From positions 1 through 26,496 of the IMG/VR virus record IMGVR_UViG_3300046477_000113: a DNA stretch of 26,496 nucleotides. One strand, given 5' to 3'. The notes beneath the pieces were generated by a model. That model was given only the letters and a program-made list of their open reading frames with translations. It was not told where the DNA came from and did not search any database. This DNA comes from a virus. Position numbers and translations under genes: made by a program. Shown in pieces: positions 5,090 to 26,289 of this stretch; position 1 is the stretch's first letter, and each line of letters begins with the position of its first letter.

Positions 5090-5871
5090 GCGACGTCGAA
5101 CGGTTCTATGCGGTTGCGCCGATCGAGATGGTCGACGTCCGAAACAACGAACCACAGGGAACGTGGACGATGAGCGGCTACGCCGCCGTGTTCGGGCATA
5201 AAGCAGAGGTCTACTCGGACAAGTTCGTCCGGGCGACCGTCGAGCTCAGCCCGCAAGCGTTCGCGAACGTCCTGACAAGCCAAGGGTTCAGCGAGCCTTC
5301 GGGTGTCGTCCACTTCAACCGCGGCCACGACATGAACACATCCGTTGCCGCAACGGACGTGCCCGCCGGCCAGCCAGGCAGTCTCAAGTTGAGCGTGGAC
5401 AAGAACGGCCTCCATTTCATGGCGAAAGTGTCGAAGTCCGACCCGGACGCCGTTGCGCTCGCCGAGAAGATGCGAGTCGGCGTTGTCAGGCAGGCCTCAT
5501 TCGCCTTTACCACAGCGGGCAACGAGTTCAGTTACGCCGAGAACGAAGACGGGCCCGACGAAGAGAACCGTCTGATCACCGATGTCGAGCATATTTACGA
5601 TGTGTGTGCGGCCACGCAGGGCGTGTTCTCACAGACCATTTCGAGTTTGGAGCGGTACGCAACGCTTCTCGGTCAGCCCGATCAGGGAGACCACCGCCAT
5701 CAGCCCGGCCTGGGCGAGGGCAACGGCGACAGCCCCGCAAGGGGAGTCGGCGTCGAAAGTGGACAAGACCGGCCGTTCGTCAGGGAGGTTCGCCAGTGGA
5801 TGGCAGCCGAACGGGCACGGCTCGGTCTCGTAGCAGTGGAAGGAAACGAGGATGGACGAAGAGCAGACTGA
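5086..5871 (+). CDS. Prohead (capsid maturation) protease, S78/U35 family
   Basis: A 261-residue serine protease that would remove the N-terminal delta domain of the capsid protein during prohead maturation. The core has His candidates H76 and H81 in HFNRGHD and a serine at S138 in VVRQASFAF, matching the His...Ser order of the family. The first 50 residues include the typical SGYAAVFGH opening strand. From about residue 190 the sequence becomes Gly/Asp/Arg-rich and low in structure. The gene starts in an ATGA overlap with portal and ends 20 bases inside the capsid gene, whose ribosome site lies within it. Order portal-protease-capsid is canonical. Confidence 0.88.
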   Translation: MSDVERFYAVAPIEMVDVRNNEPQGTWTMSGYAAVFGHKAEVYSDKFVRATVELSPQAFANVLTSQGFSEPSGVVHFNRGHDMNTSVAATDVPAGQPGSLKLSVDKNGLHFMAKVSKSDPDAVALAEKMRVGVVRQASFAFTTAGNEFSYAENEDGPDEENRLITDVEHIYDVCAATQGVFSQTISSLERYATLLGQPDQGDHRHQPGLGEGNGDSPARGVGVESGQDRPFVREVRQWMAAERARLGLVAVEGNEDGRRAD

Positions 5872-18754: not shown

Positions 18755-18900
18755 AACCCAGGACGTGCGCCCGCTGCGGCAGGCGTCTCAGGATCGGCCC
18801 CAGGCTCCGCGTCTACAGCCGGTTCACCCATTCCTACTATTGCGCGAACCTGACCGCGTGTACGAAGCGGGCTAGGCGGCGCTTGAAGGTGGTCGCATGA
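18751..18900 (+). CDS. 49-residue zinc-ribbon microprotein A
   Basis: GTG 18751 overlaps the previous stop. The product has C6-x2-C9-GRR, then a Tyr-rich strand, then C-x5-C (CANLTAC), and a very basic tail. The layout matches the protein encoded at 19739, so the two may be paralogs. Nucleic-acid binding is likely from charge. Couples by ATGA to the next gene. Confidence 0.58.
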   Translation: MKPRTCARCGRRLRIGPRLRVYSRFTHSYYCANLTACTKRARRRLKVVA

Positions 18901-19742
18901 CCGAGCTAATCGAAGGCGAGATCGTCGAAGCCACAGAACTCGTTCCCTACGTCCCTGCTTCCACGGCGATCACTTTCGTCGAAGACGCCGAAGAGTTCCT
19001 CGCCATCGCGACCAAGCAAGCGAAGATCCTCAAGAGTTTCCTAGACAAGTCCAAGAGTGTCGTGCGGATCGGGCAGACCGAACACGTCAAGGTGGGCGGC
19101 TGGCAGTTCCTCGCGCAACAAGCCGGTCTGACCGTCGGGACCACAGCCGAAGAGCTCAGGCTCGAGGATGACTCAGGCTGGAAAGCGCACGCCAACGTCT
19201 ACCGTGACGGCAAGATCGTCGGCGAGGCCGATGCGCTCTGTCTCCGGTCAGAATCGAACTGGAAGAACCGAGACACCTATGCGCTCTGCTCGATGGCCCA
19301 GACGCGGGCCATCTCCAAGTCGATCAAGGGAATCCTCGGATTCGTGGTGGTGATGGCTGGCTATTCGGACACGCCGGCGGAGGAGATGCCGCGCGATGAA
19401 CCCATGAAGCGCGCCGCCGTCCAGAAGACTGAGTTGCCGGGTGAAACGTTCGAGGACATCTTCCAAGAAAGCCACACATCCGGCGAAACCCCGACCAAGG
19501 CTGCGGCGACGAAGCTGAACCTGCTCGTCGTCGAACTGCGGGACGCGGGGAAGATCACCACTTGGCAGCTCTACCAGTCGGTAGGCCTGATGCGCGACGT
19601 CGACCCTGGTGATTTGGGCGATGCGATGAAGCAACCTGATGAAGAAGGCATCTTCCATTGGGGGCCGCTCGCCAAGACGTTGTCGAAGGGTGAGGCCCAC
19701 CAGTTGATCGATCGGCTCTCGAAGCTACAGGCGGCGGAATGA
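18897..19742 (+). CDS. Putative Rad52-like single-strand annealing protein
   Basis: A 281-residue protein. Residues about 60-155 form the core: GQTEHVKVGGWQFLAQQAG, a beta region with a DSGWKAHANVYRDGKIVGEA hairpin, then a Cys-rich turn and the helix ALCSMAQTRAISKSIKG. The order (strand, long hairpin, then a conserved helix with AxxMAxTRAxSKA) resembles Rad52/DdrA-type annealing proteins and a group common in actinophages. The C-terminal 100 residues are a charged linker and a short helical domain, which may bind partners. Placed before replication genes, annealing or recombination is a sensible guess, but remote homology was not tested. Confidence 0.5.
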   Translation: MTELIEGEIVEATELVPYVPASTAITFVEDAEEFLAIATKQAKILKSFLDKSKSVVRIGQTEHVKVGGWQFLAQQAGLTVGTTAEELRLEDDSGWKAHANVYRDGKIVGEADALCLRSESNWKNRDTYALCSMAQTRAISKSIKGILGFVVVMAGYSDTPAEEMPRDEPMKRAAVQKTELPGETFEDIFQESHTSGETPTKAAATKLNLLVVELRDAGKITTWQLYQSVGLMRDVDPGDLGDAMKQPDEEGIFHWGPLAKTLSKGEAHQLIDRLSKLQAAE

Positions 19743-21760: not shown

Positions 21761-22801
21761 GTGACCCCGTTCGTCGCTGATGGCGATTTCACCTTGCATG
21801 TAGGCGACGCGCTCGAGGTGCTCCAGGCGCTGCCGGATGAGTCGGTGCATTGTGTGGTGACGTCGCCGCCGTACTGGGGGCTCAGGGATTATGGGACGGG
21901 TTCGTGGGCTGGCGGTGACCCCGCCTGCGATCACCTACGTCAGTCGGATGTGTCACGCCAGAGCAGCACACTCGTCGGCTCGACAGACACCCAGGGCGGG
22001 ACGATCGCATGGAAGAACTCCTGCGGCAAGTGTGGCGCGACCAGGACAGACCAACAACTCGGACTCGAACCCACACCCGACGCCTACATCACGCGCATGG
22101 TCCAGGTGTTCCGCGAGGTGCGGCGGGTGTTGAGGCGGGATGGGACGTGCTGGCTAAACATCGGGGACTCGTTCGGTGAGAAGCAGATGCAAGGCATCCC
22201 GTGGCGGCTTGCGTTCGCCCTCCAAGCCGACGGCTGGTTCCTGAGATCCGACATCATCTGGGCGAAACCGAACCCGATGCCGGAGAGCGTGACGGACAGG
22301 CCGACCAAGAGCCACGAGTATGTGTTCCTGTTGACGCGCGAGGCGCGCTATTTCTATGACGCCGACGCGATCAGGGAACCTGCGGAATACGGCTACTGCC
22401 CAACGACGAATGGTGACGCTTGGCAAAGCATCGGCGCCAGCGATCGCAATCCTCTGCGCGGTGGAAAGACGGTAAAGCTAGGGGATGGCACGGGTGGCCG
22501 TAACGCTCGTTCCGTCTGGGCGATCGCCACCCAACCCTACGCCGAAGCACACTTCGCCACGTTCCCGGAGGAGCTGCCGCGCAGGTGTATCGCTGCGGGA
22601 TGCGCTGAGGATGGCGTCGTCCTCGACCCGTTCATGGGCAGCGGCACCGTCGCCCTCGTCGCCCGCAGACTCGGCCGCAAAAGCATCGGCATCGAGTTGA
22701 ATCCTGAGTACGCGGAGCTCTGCGCGCGCAGGTTGCAGCAACAGTCGCTGTTCGCGTGCGTTGTTGACGAGTCCGCCGGCATGAAAGACACCGTTGGCTA
22801 G
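21761..22801 (+). CDS. DNA methyltransferase, SPPY class (N4-cytosine or N6-adenine)
   Basis: A 346-residue beta-class DNA methyltransferase. Motif IV is TSPPYWG with S35-P-P-Y38, and the SAM site (motif I) is DPFMGSGT beginning at D289, in the order typical of this class. An insert between them carries C56-x-H58 and C88-x2-C91, a probable zinc finger. Motifs WLNIGDSF, WRLAFALQADGWFLRSDIIW and KSHEYVFLLT match phage and restriction-linked methylases. SPPY favours N4-cytosine, but N6-adenine enzymes also carry it. Start is GTG 21761. No restriction partner is next to it, so self-protection is likely. Its stop overlaps a TTG-started nuclease gene. Confidence 0.88.
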   Translation: MTPFVADGDFTLHVGDALEVLQALPDESVHCVVTSPPYWGLRDYGTGSWAGGDPACDHLRQSDVSRQSSTLVGSTDTQGGTIAWKNSCGKCGATRTDQQLGLEPTPDAYITRMVQVFREVRRVLRRDGTCWLNIGDSFGEKQMQGIPWRLAFALQADGWFLRSDIIWAKPNPMPESVTDRPTKSHEYVFLLTREARYFYDADAIREPAEYGYCPTTNGDAWQSIGASDRNPLRGGKTVKLGDGTGGRNARSVWAIATQPYAEAHFATFPEELPRRCIAAGCAEDGVVLDPFMGSGTVALVARRLGRKSIGIELNPEYAELCARRLQQQSLFACVVDESAGMKDTVG

Positions 22802-23093
22802 AGGCATCCAGCGCGAACGGCAACTCCGCCATAGCCTCGAGGCCGACGATTGGGTCGTCATCCGCGCCGCAGGCAGTCTCGGCTGCGCCGATCTTGTCGC
22901 GTTGAAGGACGGCAAGACGCCGATGATGATCGAGGTGAAATCGACTGCGCGTGGCCCGTACGCTGCGTTTCCTCCTGCGAAGCGCGCCGACTTGAAGCAG
23001 ACCGCGATGTGGGCCGGCGCCGACGCGTGGCTGGTGCACTGGCCGCCCCGCGGCAAAGCCACCTGGATCCCGGCGGTGAACTGGCCGGCATGA
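22794..23093 (+). CDS. PD-(D/E)XK nuclease, Holliday-junction-resolvase-like
   Basis: A 99-residue protein with all expected catalytic positions: E8 in the first helix, D33 in GSLGCADLVAL, and E47-V-K49 in MMIEVKST. This order is typical of small Hjc-like or VRR-type nucleases that resolve recombination or replication branches. The start is TTG 22794, overlapping the methyltransferase stop by 8 bases. No ATG or GTG start lies upstream of the E8 helix inside this frame. It fits with the Rad52-like gene and the ATPase as part of recombination and replication. Exact substrate is unknown. Confidence 0.78.
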   Translation: MARGIQRERQLRHSLEADDWVVIRAAGSLGCADLVALKDGKTPMMIEVKSTARGPYAAFPPAKRADLKQTAMWAGADAWLVHWPPRGKATWIPAVNWPA

Positions 23094-24025
23094 CCGAATC
23101 CATCGTCTATTTCGTCCGCAATCCCGAGAATGACCATGTGCGAATCGGCTCAGACAGTAAGGGACTTGGCGGACGCGCCCGCGCGCACAGCCAATATGGC
23201 TTCGATGAGCTGCTGGCCGCATTACCAGGAGACGATGAGGACGAGAAACTAATCCATGAGTTCTTCTGCAACGATCTCGTTCCCAACCGTAAATCAGTGT
23301 ATCGCGGTGAACGAATATATGACTATGTGACTTGGCTAGTGGCGCGTGCCTACGCCGTTCCTAGCCTCGCAGATGTATCCAAACTTCCACGATTGCCCTG
23401 GGCTGTATGGGCACCCGCAGAATATCGGGCCGATGAGATCTACGAAGGGCAGCTATCAATCATCGCGGCGCTTCCGCCGCCAGAGCGGGTGGCTGCTACC
23501 CATAAGCTCGCATATCTCAGTTCGGAGAGCGACGAGTGGAATACACCACCTCTGATCTTGGACGCAGCCAGAGAAGTGTTCGGCGGAACAATCGATACGG
23601 ATCCTGCATCCAACTTTGAGGCCCAGAAGTTCGTGCAGGCGAGTGTCTGGTATTCCAAGGCGCAGAATGGTCTCCGAACGGATTTGCCCTGGAGCGGATC
23701 GGTATGGATGAATCCTCCCTATGGGATAGGCGATACTTCGGCCGGTCCATTCGTGCGGCGCCTTCTCAGCGAACTCAGGTCAGGCAACGTGCGGGAGGCC
23801 ATCACGAATCTGAACGTATCCAGCACAACGACCAACTGGTTCTCGCCCATCTGGAATATCGCCGCGCTACATCTCATATACCAGGGACGTCCGGACTATT
23901 GGCGCGCTGGGGATGAAGGAGCGAGTGGTCCAAACAAGGGTACGATCTTCTCGTATTTCGGTGACAGCGAGGATCGGTTCGTGCAAATATTTGGCCCTAT
24001 GGGTCATTTGTTGAGGGTTACATGA
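23090..24025 (+). CDS. Fusion of GIY-YIG-like (T5orf172) domain and Dam methyltransferase
   Basis: A 311-residue protein. Residues 5 to about 85 resemble the T5orf172/GIY-YIG-like domain: IVYFVRNPENDHVRIGS, an Arg in GGRARAHS, and an acidic EDEKLIHEFF helix. Residues about 145-311 are a phage Dam (N6-adenine) methyltransferase with SDEWNTPPLILDAAREVFGG, SAM motif DPASN from D171, and catalytic MNPPYG (N208-P-P-Y211). The late WFSPIWNIAALHLIYQGRPD and SGPNKGTIFSYFG match the family. The gene is lower in GC than its neighbours, suggesting recent transfer. It starts by ATGA overlap with the nuclease gene. Methyl transfer is well supported; nuclease activity of the N-terminus is uncertain. Confidence 0.82.
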   Translation: MTESIVYFVRNPENDHVRIGSDSKGLGGRARAHSQYGFDELLAALPGDDEDEKLIHEFFCNDLVPNRKSVYRGERIYDYVTWLVARAYAVPSLADVSKLPRLPWAVWAPAEYRADEIYEGQLSIIAALPPPERVAATHKLAYLSSESDEWNTPPLILDAAREVFGGTIDTDPASNFEAQKFVQASVWYSKAQNGLRTDLPWSGSVWMNPPYGIGDTSAGPFVRRLLSELRSGNVREAITNLNVSSTTTNWFSPIWNIAALHLIYQGRPDYWRAGDEGASGPNKGTIFSYFGDSEDRFVQIFGPMGHLLRVT

Positions 24026-24222
24026 TCCGCGCTCTCTGTCCCGTCTGCCATCGCGAACAACCAATCAGATGGGTTGAATGGTCGCCAGAGGGCCAGGAAT
24101 GGCGCATAGAGGCGCATCGGCGCGCCACCCGCAACAACAACGAACGCCACCGCGACTGGTTCAACCCCGGGATGCCATGCGAAGGCTCAGGCATGTTGGC
24201 ACACAAACCGAGGGTGGCTTAG
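24022..24222 (+). CDS. Small zinc-knuckle-like protein
   Basis: A 66-residue protein with C6-x2-C9 at the start, then a strand with Trp residues, a basic His/Arg region and a final PCEGSG turn. This CPxC...H...CxGSG layout is common in short phage proteins of unknown role and fits a single zinc site. It overlaps the Dam fusion gene stop (ATGA). GC content returns to the high level of the rest of the window here. Confidence 0.6.
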   Translation: MIRALCPVCHREQPIRWVEWSPEGQEWRIEAHRRATRNNNERHRDWFNPGMPCEGSGMLAHKPRVA

Positions 24223-24245
24223 ACTCCCACCTCCATGACTGGCCC

Positions 24246-24443
24246 TTGAGCAGCCTAGAGGAGCGGTGGCCGCACCCCGCCCGTGTCGGTGTCGCCATGC
24301 GCCTCGCAAAGGACGTCGGCACCTGTTGCGAGCTCCTCGAGGGCGCTCCTGTGGATCCTGACCGGATCGACCACAAGCAGCTCCGGTGGGCGAAACAACG
24401 GCTACTCGTCCGCCTCGACCTCCACGCGATCGACCTCCTATGA
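24246..24443 (+). CDS. Hypothetical helical protein before the ATPase gene
   Basis: A 65-residue product if TTG 24246 is used. An internal ATG (24297) gives a shorter 48-residue form, and the frame also extends upstream over the previous gene. It is helical and charged with two adjacent Cys (VGTCCELLEGAPVDPDRID) and a basic end (KQLRWAKQRLLVRLD). The stop overlaps the ATPase ATG (ATGA), supporting translation. No family recognised. The start is the main uncertainty. Confidence 0.5.
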   Translation: MSSLEERWPHPARVGVAMRLAKDVGTCCELLEGAPVDPDRIDHKQLRWAKQRLLVRLDLHAIDLL

Positions 24444-25681
24444 CATACGCAGACATCCACGAGCTCGCCGCCGGCATCGAAGCAGCCGACGAAGCACAAC
24501 TCCACGAACTCGAGGACGCCGAACTCGATGCCTACACGACCAACAGCAACGGCACCGAACCCGCAACCGAGTGGCAACCCCTCACCGTCAGCACCTTCCT
24601 CGAACTGCCAGAACCAGCAGGCGCCGAGCTACTCGGGCCACTCGTCCTGCGCGGCGGCAGAACCATCATCGGCGGCGACTCAGGCCACGGCAAAACCACG
24701 CTCGCCTTTGCAATCACAGCAGCCATCCTCAACGGAACCGAACTACTCGGACAAGGCGGCGCAGGCGAAGGCCCAGCCCTGATCATCGACCTCGAGCAAG
24801 GAATCAAATCGATCAAGCGCGGCATCCGGGAAGCTGAGCTCGGCGACACCGACAGCCACATCCTCAACCTCCCAGATGGGCTCGCACTCGACCAGGACGT
24901 CTGTCAGCTAAGCGAACTCGAGAACGTGATCGCTGCGCTACGCCCGGTTGTGGTCGTTCTCGACCCTTACTACAAAGCCCATCGCGGAGACGCCAACGAA
25001 GAACGCGGCGTCACCGACCTGATGCGAAATCTCGACCGTCTCCGAACCGACTACGGCTTCGCGCTCATCCTGCCCGCTCACGTCCGCAAAGAACAACAAA
25101 CCGGCGGACCACGCAAACTCAGCCTCGCCGACATCGCCGGCAGCGGAGCAATCAGCCGCGGCGCCGAAATCGTCCTCGCCATCGAACGCCTCAGCCACGG
25201 CGAAGCCCGACTTCGCTACCTCAAAGACCGCGAAGGTGACCTCCCAATCGGCGACCACCTCGACCTCACCTACACAAAGACTGACGGCTTCCAAGTCAAA
25301 GAACGAGAAACAAGCCTCTCAATCGAACAACGAATTCTCGCCGTATCAGACAGCGGATGGCTCATCGCGGCCGAATGGGCACGCGAACTCGAACTCAACG
25401 ACCAAGAGACCAGAAGCGTCCTCAAACGACTCGCCGCCGCCGACAAAATCTCGTGCGAAACCGGACCCCCAGGCCGAAAACACAACGCCGTCTGCTACTC
25501 AACCTCTGCTCGTCTAACAATTCCAGCCGACCACAGCCGACCAAGCCGAGCAGAGTGGGATGCGACCTGCTCGGCTGCTCTTCCAGCCTCTTCTATAGGA
25601 AGAGCAGACAGAGCCGAGCAGCACACGCCCGATCCTGCTGCCCAGCCAAGCTGGCAGAGCAACGACGACATCCCGTTCTGA
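24440..25681 (+). CDS. RecA-fold ATPase/helicase (AAA_25, RepA-like) with SSB-like tail
   Basis: A 413-residue protein. Residues 60-280 form a RecA-like ATPase: Walker A GGDSGHGKTT (G78-T87, with K85), ALIIDLEQG strand, Walker B VVVVLDPYY with D175, and LPAHVRKEQ sensor region, typical of RepA-type hexameric helicases and phage AAA_25 proteins. Residues about 295-355 look like a winged helix. The last 60 residues are low complexity and end PSWQSNDDIPF, matching the acidic tip of bacterial SSB (DDIPF). It is the best candidate for the replicative helicase or an origin protein. No primase or polymerase gene is seen near it. Confidence 0.78.
   Translation: MTYADIHELAAGIEAADEAQLHELEDAELDAYTTNSNGTEPATEWQPLTVSTFLELPEPAGAELLGPLVLRGGRTIIGGDSGHGKTTLAFAITAAILNGTELLGQGGAGEGPALIIDLEQGIKSIKRGIREAELGDTDSHILNLPDGLALDQDVCQLSELENVIAALRPVVVVLDPYYKAHRGDANEERGVTDLMRNLDRLRTDYGFALILPAHVRKEQQTGGPRKLSLADIAGSGAISRGAEIVLAIERLSHGEARLRYLKDREGDLPIGDHLDLTYTKTDGFQVKERETSLSIEQRILAVSDSGWLIAAEWARELELNDQETRSVLKRLAAADKISCETGPPGRKHNAVCYSTSARLTIPADHSRPSRAEWDATCSAALPASSIGRADRAEQHTPDPAAQPSWQSNDDIPF
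25525..25621. repeat. Iteron-like cluster and inverted repeat in the ATPase gene end
   Basis: The 10-mer AGCCGAGCAG occurs at 25544-25553 and 25612-25621 and inverted (CTGCTCGGCT) at 25567-25576. Variants AGCCGACCAC (25525-25534) and AGCCGACCAA (25535-25544) precede it. A 10-bp exact pair CTGCTCTTCC / GGAAGAGCAG (25575-25584 with 25598-25607) adds a hairpin. It lies in sequence coding for a disordered tail. Confidence 0.6.
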
Positions 25682-25692
25682 AAGGAGCCGCA

Positions 25693-25878
25693 ATGAACAA
25701 CTTCACCACCCTGGGAGCCACAGAGGCGTACCTCCGCCACGAAATCGATCTCGCAACCGTCATAAAGGCCGCCGAAGACGAAGGCGAGCTCGGCGACCGC
25801 GCGATCACGAACCTGCTCTTATTCGACATCGCGCTCACGCTCGACATCATCGCGAGCGCTGCAACTCCCGACGCCTAA
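25693..25878 (+). CDS. Small acidic helical protein
   Basis: A 61-residue protein. ATG 25693 has AAAGGAG (25681-25687) 5 bases upstream. It is predicted helical throughout (TEAYLRHEIDLATVIKAAED, then TNLLLFDIALTLDIIASA) and acidic. The stop directly abuts the ATG at 25879. No recognised family. Confidence 0.58.
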   Translation: MNNFTTLGATEAYLRHEIDLATVIKAAEDEGELGDRAITNLLLFDIALTLDIIASAATPDA

Positions 25879-26091
25879 ATGCCTAACTTCCCTCGAGGCC
25901 ACTGGGCCATCAAAACCAACGCCCACAACGCCAACCTCATCGCAACCCTCAGCCGGCAAACCGTCAACACCACACCAGGCCGCATCACCTGGATCCTCAC
26001 CGCCAGCGACACCATCACACTCAGAGGAATCCCCGCCATCGGCCGCGGCGTCGAAGGCGCCATCAACCACACCCGACCCGACCAAACCTAA
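25879..26091 (+). CDS. Hypothetical protein, Asn/Thr/Arg-rich
   Basis: A 70-residue protein whose ATG follows the previous TAA without a gap. It has a probable beta-rich centre (PGRITWILTASDTITLRG) and polar ends. Codon use is extremely C/A-rich, like the surrounding kilobase. Coding is supported by packing, but no function is known. Confidence 0.5.
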   Translation: MPNFPRGHWAIKTNAHNANLIATLSRQTVNTTPGRITWILTASDTITLRGIPAIGRGVEGAINHTRPDQT

Positions 26092-26289
26092 ATCCCAAAC
26101 AACCCACCCCATCACAGCCAATCCCGAATCTCCAACACACCCGCCGATTCTCATGGCATACTCCCCACGGAGCCGAAGACCACACCGGCCACACGATCGC
26201 CTGGTTAGGCACACCCCCTAGGCGCTAGCCATCACCACACAGCCGCCGAAAGGCGGCTTCTCAATGACCACACATAGCACCACCACACC
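26092..26289. other. Intergenic C/A-rich gap with one hairpin
   Basis: This 198-base gap is the largest in the window. It is rich in C and A and poor in G and T. It holds a GAAA-loop hairpin at 26241-26258. A CATACT box (26157-26162) preceded by TGG is only a weak -10-like match with no good -35. No convincing gene was seen. Confidence 0.5.
26241..26258 (+). terminator. Hairpin with GAAA tetraloop
   Basis: AGCCGCC (26241-26247) pairs exactly with GGCGGCT (26252-26258) around a stable GAAA loop. It is followed by TCTC rather than a T-run, so termination may be partial. It lies 150 bases after the last gene of the preceding block. Confidence 0.55.

Follow-up and report, generated by a model that had tools for sequence, protein, structure and literature searches.

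What does the C-terminal tip of bacterial SSB do on a phage ATPase that resembles a replicative helicase, and what is encoded in the DNA of the linker that carries it? The protein in question lies in a 26.5-kb IMG/VR record (26,496 nucleotides; the whole stretch analysed is called the window below) from a tailed phage; its terminase is most similar to those of Rhodococcus, Gordonia and Arthrobacter phages. The features of the protein, compared with its closest relative (L005, from another viral contig), are as follows.

24440..25681, + strand: AAA_25 RecA-fold helicase-type ATPase, 413 aa (ATG at 24440, TGA at 25681; Pfam AAA_25)
24674..24697, + strand: Walker A motif GDSGHGKT (residues 79-86), read from the sequence and nearly invariant in the 9-row family alignment
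25310..25507, + strand: conserved domain after the core (residues about 291-356), 74% identical with L005 and conserved in the family
25661..25678, + strand: SSB-like C-terminal tip NDDIPF, from the translation; present in L005 as DDDIPF

The first-pass annotation had called this ORF a RecA-fold ATPase, and the domain searches agree: residues 46-220 match Pfam AAA_25 (E=2.8e-22; 79.7 bits against a cut-off of 27), and Walker A is present. DnaB_C scored below threshold on Pfam (20.8 bits against a cut-off of 27), the best PHROG matches were primase/helicase (E=2.6e-18) and DnaB-like (E=2.2e-13), and the PDB matches, T7 gp4 and RadA, were both weak. Pfam returned only AAA_25 and the sub-threshold DnaB_C, and no OB-fold SSB domain was found. 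The region of residues 291-356 gave no Pfam match; judged by eye, it probably folds as a winged helix-turn-helix. The protein is thus best described as a probable replication ATPase of a phage, belonging to the RecA/AAA_25 (DnaB- or RepA-like) helicases and extended at its C-terminus by an extra domain that looks DNA-binding.

Translation of the Pfam-typed ORF gave QPSWQSNDDIPF as the C-terminus of the 413-aa protein, as expected from the earlier observation that it ends NDDIPF like SSB. An acidic DD[IL]PF tip stands at the extreme C-terminus of both the ATPase and its L005 counterpart; the sixth residue from the end is N in the window and D in L005, while the last five are identical. No second tip-like C-terminus was present among the window ORFs on either strand. 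Given the window's own protein composition, the chance of DDIPF at one given C-terminus is about 2.5e-7, and that of the looser pattern [DE][DE][ILVP]PF is about 5e-6 per C-terminus or about 2e-4 over ~40 genes. The coding pattern for DDIPF followed by a stop occurred in at least 120 stretches of viral contigs, against 6 for the permuted control IDDPF-stop; in phage proteins at large the tip is therefore a genuine signature of selection. Its conservation between the window and L005 alone, judged against the identity of the linker itself, gives a p of about 0.04.

We then asked which other phage proteins carry this ending. A sample of 74 DDIPF-ending viral ORFs was scanned by Pfam and PHROG and matched mainly SSB families, with RecT, Erf, a Cas4-type exonuclease, a primase and a phrog_19042 protein in addition. 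The non-SSB cases were the phrog_19042 protein (L028:3955-4722), a RecT-like protein (L048:939-1892), the Cas4-type exonuclease (L045:2064-3401), the primase (L039:2901-4430) and an Erf-like protein (L058:8750-9643). The window has its own member of one of these families:

18897..19742, + strand: phrog_19042 protein (PHROG E=1.6e-15), without a tip in the window copy

The L028 relative matches the same family at E=2.3e-60 and has a DDIPF tip of its own; the window protein is a candidate ssDNA-handling partner. These sequences suggest that the SSB tip behaves as a portable motif, a tail that phages can attach to the various ssDNA-metabolism proteins just named and, in the window, to a helicase-type ATPase. 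In the part of the literature that we covered there was no description of such portable tips, of a phage helicase with an SSB-like tip, or of the embedded element presented below.

Relatives of the ATPase were needed to see how far the tip extends. A single-sequence scan of viral contigs found none, and an alignment with distant Gordonia helicases was required; profile scans then recovered L005-L009, L017 and L018 from viral contigs and L020 from an Actinomycetota MAG, giving a family alignment of nine members. All close relatives are metagenomic: a megablast against cultured phages gave no near relative of the window, and a plasmid search gave one match, which was distant. L005 is 68% identical and similar in gene order. 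It ends TPVDDDIPF, with four extra codons directly before the tip and a post-stop sequence unrelated to that of the window. The seven other close relatives (43-47% identical) lack the tip, which is therefore found in 2/9 aligned members; it is also missing from L147, a broken relative in G185 found by a profile search of 399 genomes of the Actinomycetota MAG's class, and from the distant helicases of Gordonia, Arthrobacter and Rhodococcus phages. The tip thus belongs to one subclade. The comparison of C-termini among related ATPases, proposed in the first-pass annotation as a check, accordingly came out divided: the tip is kept in L005, but it is no family trait. It is probably an SSB-type docking tail retained in that subclade. 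Two of the tip-less members, L007 (5956-7317) and L018 (5860-7170), end alike in NPLLEGL, and the extreme C-terminus may hold a different short, possibly docking, motif in each lineage.

The setting of the tip is a set of phages with no recognisable SSB gene. Searches with PF00436 and phrog_44 found none in the window record and six longer related records (G000-G005, G007), and the 5.7-kb G006 had no PF00436 SSB; the earlier remark that no SSB gene is visible in the window therefore holds for canonical SSBs. Toprim_2 had no match in the window or L005 and was found in the searched viral records only as a fusion to the ATPase in L006 (5173-7104) and L009 (5244-6995), where the Toprim (primase-type) domain is N-terminal, in primase-helicase fashion. 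The SSB of the MAG that carries L020, the sole host with a close relative, ends DDDIPF, which shows that at least one likely host group has this tip on its own SSB. The SSB of the cultured Gordonia phage VanLee ends DDEPPF. Host DnaG binds the SSB tip (PMC5872125), and phage annealing proteins recognise SSB C-termini (PMC5928155, PMC10711431). Because the window and L005 have neither Toprim_2 nor SSB, host DnaG would be an attractive partner for the tip. SSB mimicry by the ATPase is plausible on these grounds. The proposal that the tip hijacks host SSB partners is strengthened by its retention in L005, the lack of an SSB gene in either record and the DDDIPF ending of the host SSB, and is weakened in that the tip is not family-wide and the linker is no mere spacer. 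Docking of a phage annealing protein, or regulation of the ATPase itself, would be an equally possible role for the tip.

The linker before the tip had been annotated as disordered, which fits on composition alone, but its DNA is itself constrained and carries an element of iterons and a hairpin that is conserved among relatives. In the window, repeat searches located the following parts.

25506..25621, no strand assigned: iteron cluster, with a repeat score above that of every other 200-nt segment of the record
25506-25515, - strand: iteron variant CTGCTCGTCT
25524-25533 and 25534-25543: iterons CAGCCGACCA
25544-25553, + strand: iteron AGCCGAGCAG
25567-25576, - strand: iteron
25612-25621, + strand: iteron
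25575..25607, no strand assigned: central hairpin CTGCTCTTCC-AGCCTCTTCTATA-GGAAGAGCAG, of a rare hairpin class and with compensated pairs relative to L005

The linker iterons read AGCCGAGCAG/CTGCTCGGCT, and all three copies of GCCGAGCA in the window record (3/3) are confined to the linker. Hairpins with a stem of at least 9 and a loop of at most 13 number only three in the 26.5 kb, two of them in the linker, and the central hairpin contains an alternative inner stem, CTCTTC-TATAG-GAAGAG. L005 has a hairpin at the same place (CTGCTTCTCC-AGCCTTCTCTATA-GGAGAAGCAG) with iterons CAGCACACCA/TGGTGTGCTG, and its four added codons before the tip are an additional copy of CAGCACACCA. Between the two, two stem pairs have changed in both arms with pairing intact, and the accompanying residue changes are L to S, S to F and R to E; the hairpin pairing was preserved at the expense of the encoded protein. 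Four-fold sites differ at 4/15 positions in the linker versus 30/62 in the core. The element is not AT-rich (GC of 0.60 in the last 200 nt versus 0.63 in the record), and an Rfam search gave no match. The linker peptide SSIGRAD was considered as a tRNA-derived artefact, a reading rejected when no tRNA was found, and an intrinsic terminator was rejected on the lack of a T-run and the position of the hairpin inside the ORF.

Iterons and hairpin recur throughout the family. At the end of the gene, over the last ~200 nt, 9/9 aligned members have member-specific iterons in both orientations and a hairpin, and repeated 8-mers there exceed all 300 dinucleotide shuffles. The members' own iterons include GGAGCAC, CCTGTCCC, GCTCACC, GGATCACC, ACTGCGCC and GAACAGTC, and several are confined to the linker: GCACACCA with 6/6 copies in L005, GAACAGTC with 5/5 in L018 and GGGAGCAC with 4/4 in L006. 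The repeat score of the linker tops the whole record in the window, L005, L017 and L020 and nearly does so in L008; it is not exceptional against the own record in L006, L007 and L009, where enrichment is weak. In every one of the nine, 50-100 nt separate the hairpin from the stop codon, and its loop is short and often contains TA. Perfect hairpins with a stem of at least 9 and a loop of up to 13 occur 2-11 times per record, and 8/9 records have one in the last 200 nt. The L006 stem is 8 bp; in L008 the central hairpin is 7 bp, and the hairpin of at least 9 bp is an upstream iteron palindrome. In the broken relative L147, reading by eye gave eight copies of a ACGACACC-type iteron and, as central hairpin, only the short CCCCTTATAGGGG. 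The distant, linker-less helicases L002-L004 have no such element at the gene end. The element's sequence diverges between members while its iteron-hairpin structure persists, and this family-wide conservation is the stronger and more surprising part of the locus, ahead of the tip.

Among the cultured phages of Gordonia and Arthrobacter that encode distant homologues, most have a separate initiator gene ahead of the helicase. The top repeat-rich segment fell inside the gene at the initiator position in 4/6 of them (Pitbull, Dardanus, Aleemily and Gsput1, where that gene is hypothetical) and outside it in Schmidt and Morgana; an annotated SSB or DNA-binding gene is close by in four of the six. 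The repeat-rich segments inside the initiator or same-position genes of Pitbull, Dardanus, Aleemily and Gsput1, at L185 1661-1941, L186 1601-1841, L188 1001-1241 and L189 1581-1821, are candidate lambda-like origins.

Taken together, we favour, at a probability of roughly 0.55, an initiator-type helicase with an origin-like element in its own gene and, in one subclade, an SSB-like tail that would recruit SSB-binding proteins. By analogy with known systems, the element is most likely a replication origin inside the helicase gene. The ATPase or a partner would act on this cis element in the linker-coding DNA: copies of the ATPase would bind the iterons flanking the hairpin, the hairpin region would open, and helicases would load on either side. 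Where the tip is present, in the window and L005, it would then dock readers of SSB tails (e.g. host DnaG, PriA, RecO, RecG or an annealing protein of the phage) at the fork, serving a phage without a recognisable SSB or primase gene. If so, actinobacterial phages without a recognisable SSB or separate initiator gene would have a compact replication design of a helicase with an embedded origin-like element. A more ambitious form, in which a single gene is the replication cassette, its initiator helicase carrying the origin, with fast-diverging iterons around a hairpin, in its coding sequence and one lineage having taken over the SSB tail so as to bring SSB-binding proteins to the fork with no SSB gene of its own, is tentative, and we would bet somewhat against it.

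The element might instead be a regulatory site, either an operator or an mRNA structure that controls the gene or those downstream of it, with the tip keeping its SSB-like role. A helix-turn-helix domain would need no more than such binding sites, and the hairpin, placed 50-100 nt ahead of the stop in 9/9 members, could be an mRNA structure; the iterons, however, stand in both orientations with up to six per 8-mer, no T-run follows the hairpin, Rfam has no match and the downstream genes vary among members, which makes a regulatory site improbable, if still worth carrying along. The partial RadA and UvsX-like matches of the ATPase could mark it as a recombination enzyme of the RecA/Sak4 kind and not a replicative helicase, but this is quite doubtful when the best PHROG matches are to primase/helicase and DnaB-like helicase, a Toprim primase is fused in L006 and L009, and distant relatives are annotated as DnaB-like helicases beside replication initiators.

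For the tip, there are reports of SSB tails touching the DNA-binding sites of their own protein (discussed in PMC5928155), and an internal regulator of this kind would fold onto the DNA-binding surface of the ATPase and compete with ssDNA, recruiting no partner. We consider this unlikely: acidity alone would need no exact DDIPF with its terminal Pro-Phe, the signature of binding to SSB partners, and the same ending is found on other phage proteins of ssDNA metabolism whose cores are unrelated. That the tip is a neutral or chance ending common to two related phages draws on there being just two sequences, whose conservation alone is weak evidence (the p of about 0.04 above). It is very improbable in view of the prior of about 2.5e-7, the global enrichment of DDIPF-stop over the permuted control, and the preservation of five residues despite an upstream indel, an N/D change and unrelated downstream sequence.

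The surroundings of the gene show further similarities between the window and L005.

22794..23093, + strand: Hjc-type Holliday-junction nuclease, upstream neighbour (Pfam Hjc E=5.9e-9)

In L005, Hjc is also upstream of the ATPase (5224-5532, Pfam E=1.8e-8), and the order runs Hjc nuclease, short ORF, ATPase, small sigma-like ORF, a short ORF with the motif RGIPAIGRGV, and terminase. The window has Hjc, methyltransferase, ATPase and short ORFs including the RGIPAIGRGV motif, with the terminase at the record's other end; from the L005 order, the record may be near a whole genome opened near the terminase. The 18-nt non-coding sequence GCGCTAGCCATCACCACA is identical at window 26222-26239 and L005 7809-7826 and may be a promoter, packaging or regulatory site; in both, a short GC-rich stem (GCCGCC..GGCGGC in the window) comes next, ahead of the terminase region. 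Positions 24001-26000 of the window show strong strand asymmetry versus the rest of the record, with GC skew down to -0.25 and AT skew up to +0.34. A packaging site was considered for the linker element, the ATPase gene being just upstream of the L005 terminase, and is disfavoured because the sequence after the gene in L006 and L009 resembles, by eye, the start of a RusA-type resolvase and not of a terminase.

Among known systems, the tip resembles that of E. coli SSB (DDDIPF), with which it has the last five residues in common at the extreme C-terminus after a low-complexity linker; in contrast to bacterial SSB, the window protein has no OB fold and is a RecA-fold ATPase, and its linker DNA is a cis element. 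The T7 gp4 tail is not an SSB-type DDIPF tip. Still, gp4 is, like the window protein, a RecA-type phage helicase with an acidic C-terminal tail, and in T7 this tail docks the polymerase (PMC5997990). The helicases of VanLee (gp46), Pitbull (gp56), Dardanus (gp48) and Schmidt (gp47) have an AAA_25/DnaB-like core in a replication module, as in the window, but lack the C-terminal linker, the tip and the repeat enrichment at the gene end; most lie beside a separate initiator gene and several near an SSB gene.

Lambda O is an initiator and not an ATPase, and the resemblance to it is in the DNA: as at ori-lambda, several iterons lie inside a replication-protein gene. The lambdoid origin consists of iterons inside the O gene, where extra copies add residues in Stx phages (PMC7466680), just as the extra CAGCACACCA adds four in L005. 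Lambda has an AT-rich region adjoining its iterons, and the window instead a central hairpin. The ATPase of SaPI Rep and SCCmec Cch2 is of another class, AAA+. Both are initiator helicases with C-terminal dsDNA-binding domains that bind adjacent iterons (PMC7581432). Their layout resembles that of the window, with an ATPase core, then a C-terminal dsDNA-binding domain (putative in the window) and iterons at the 3' end of the gene; their origin, however, lies downstream of the gene, whereas the window element lies inside it.
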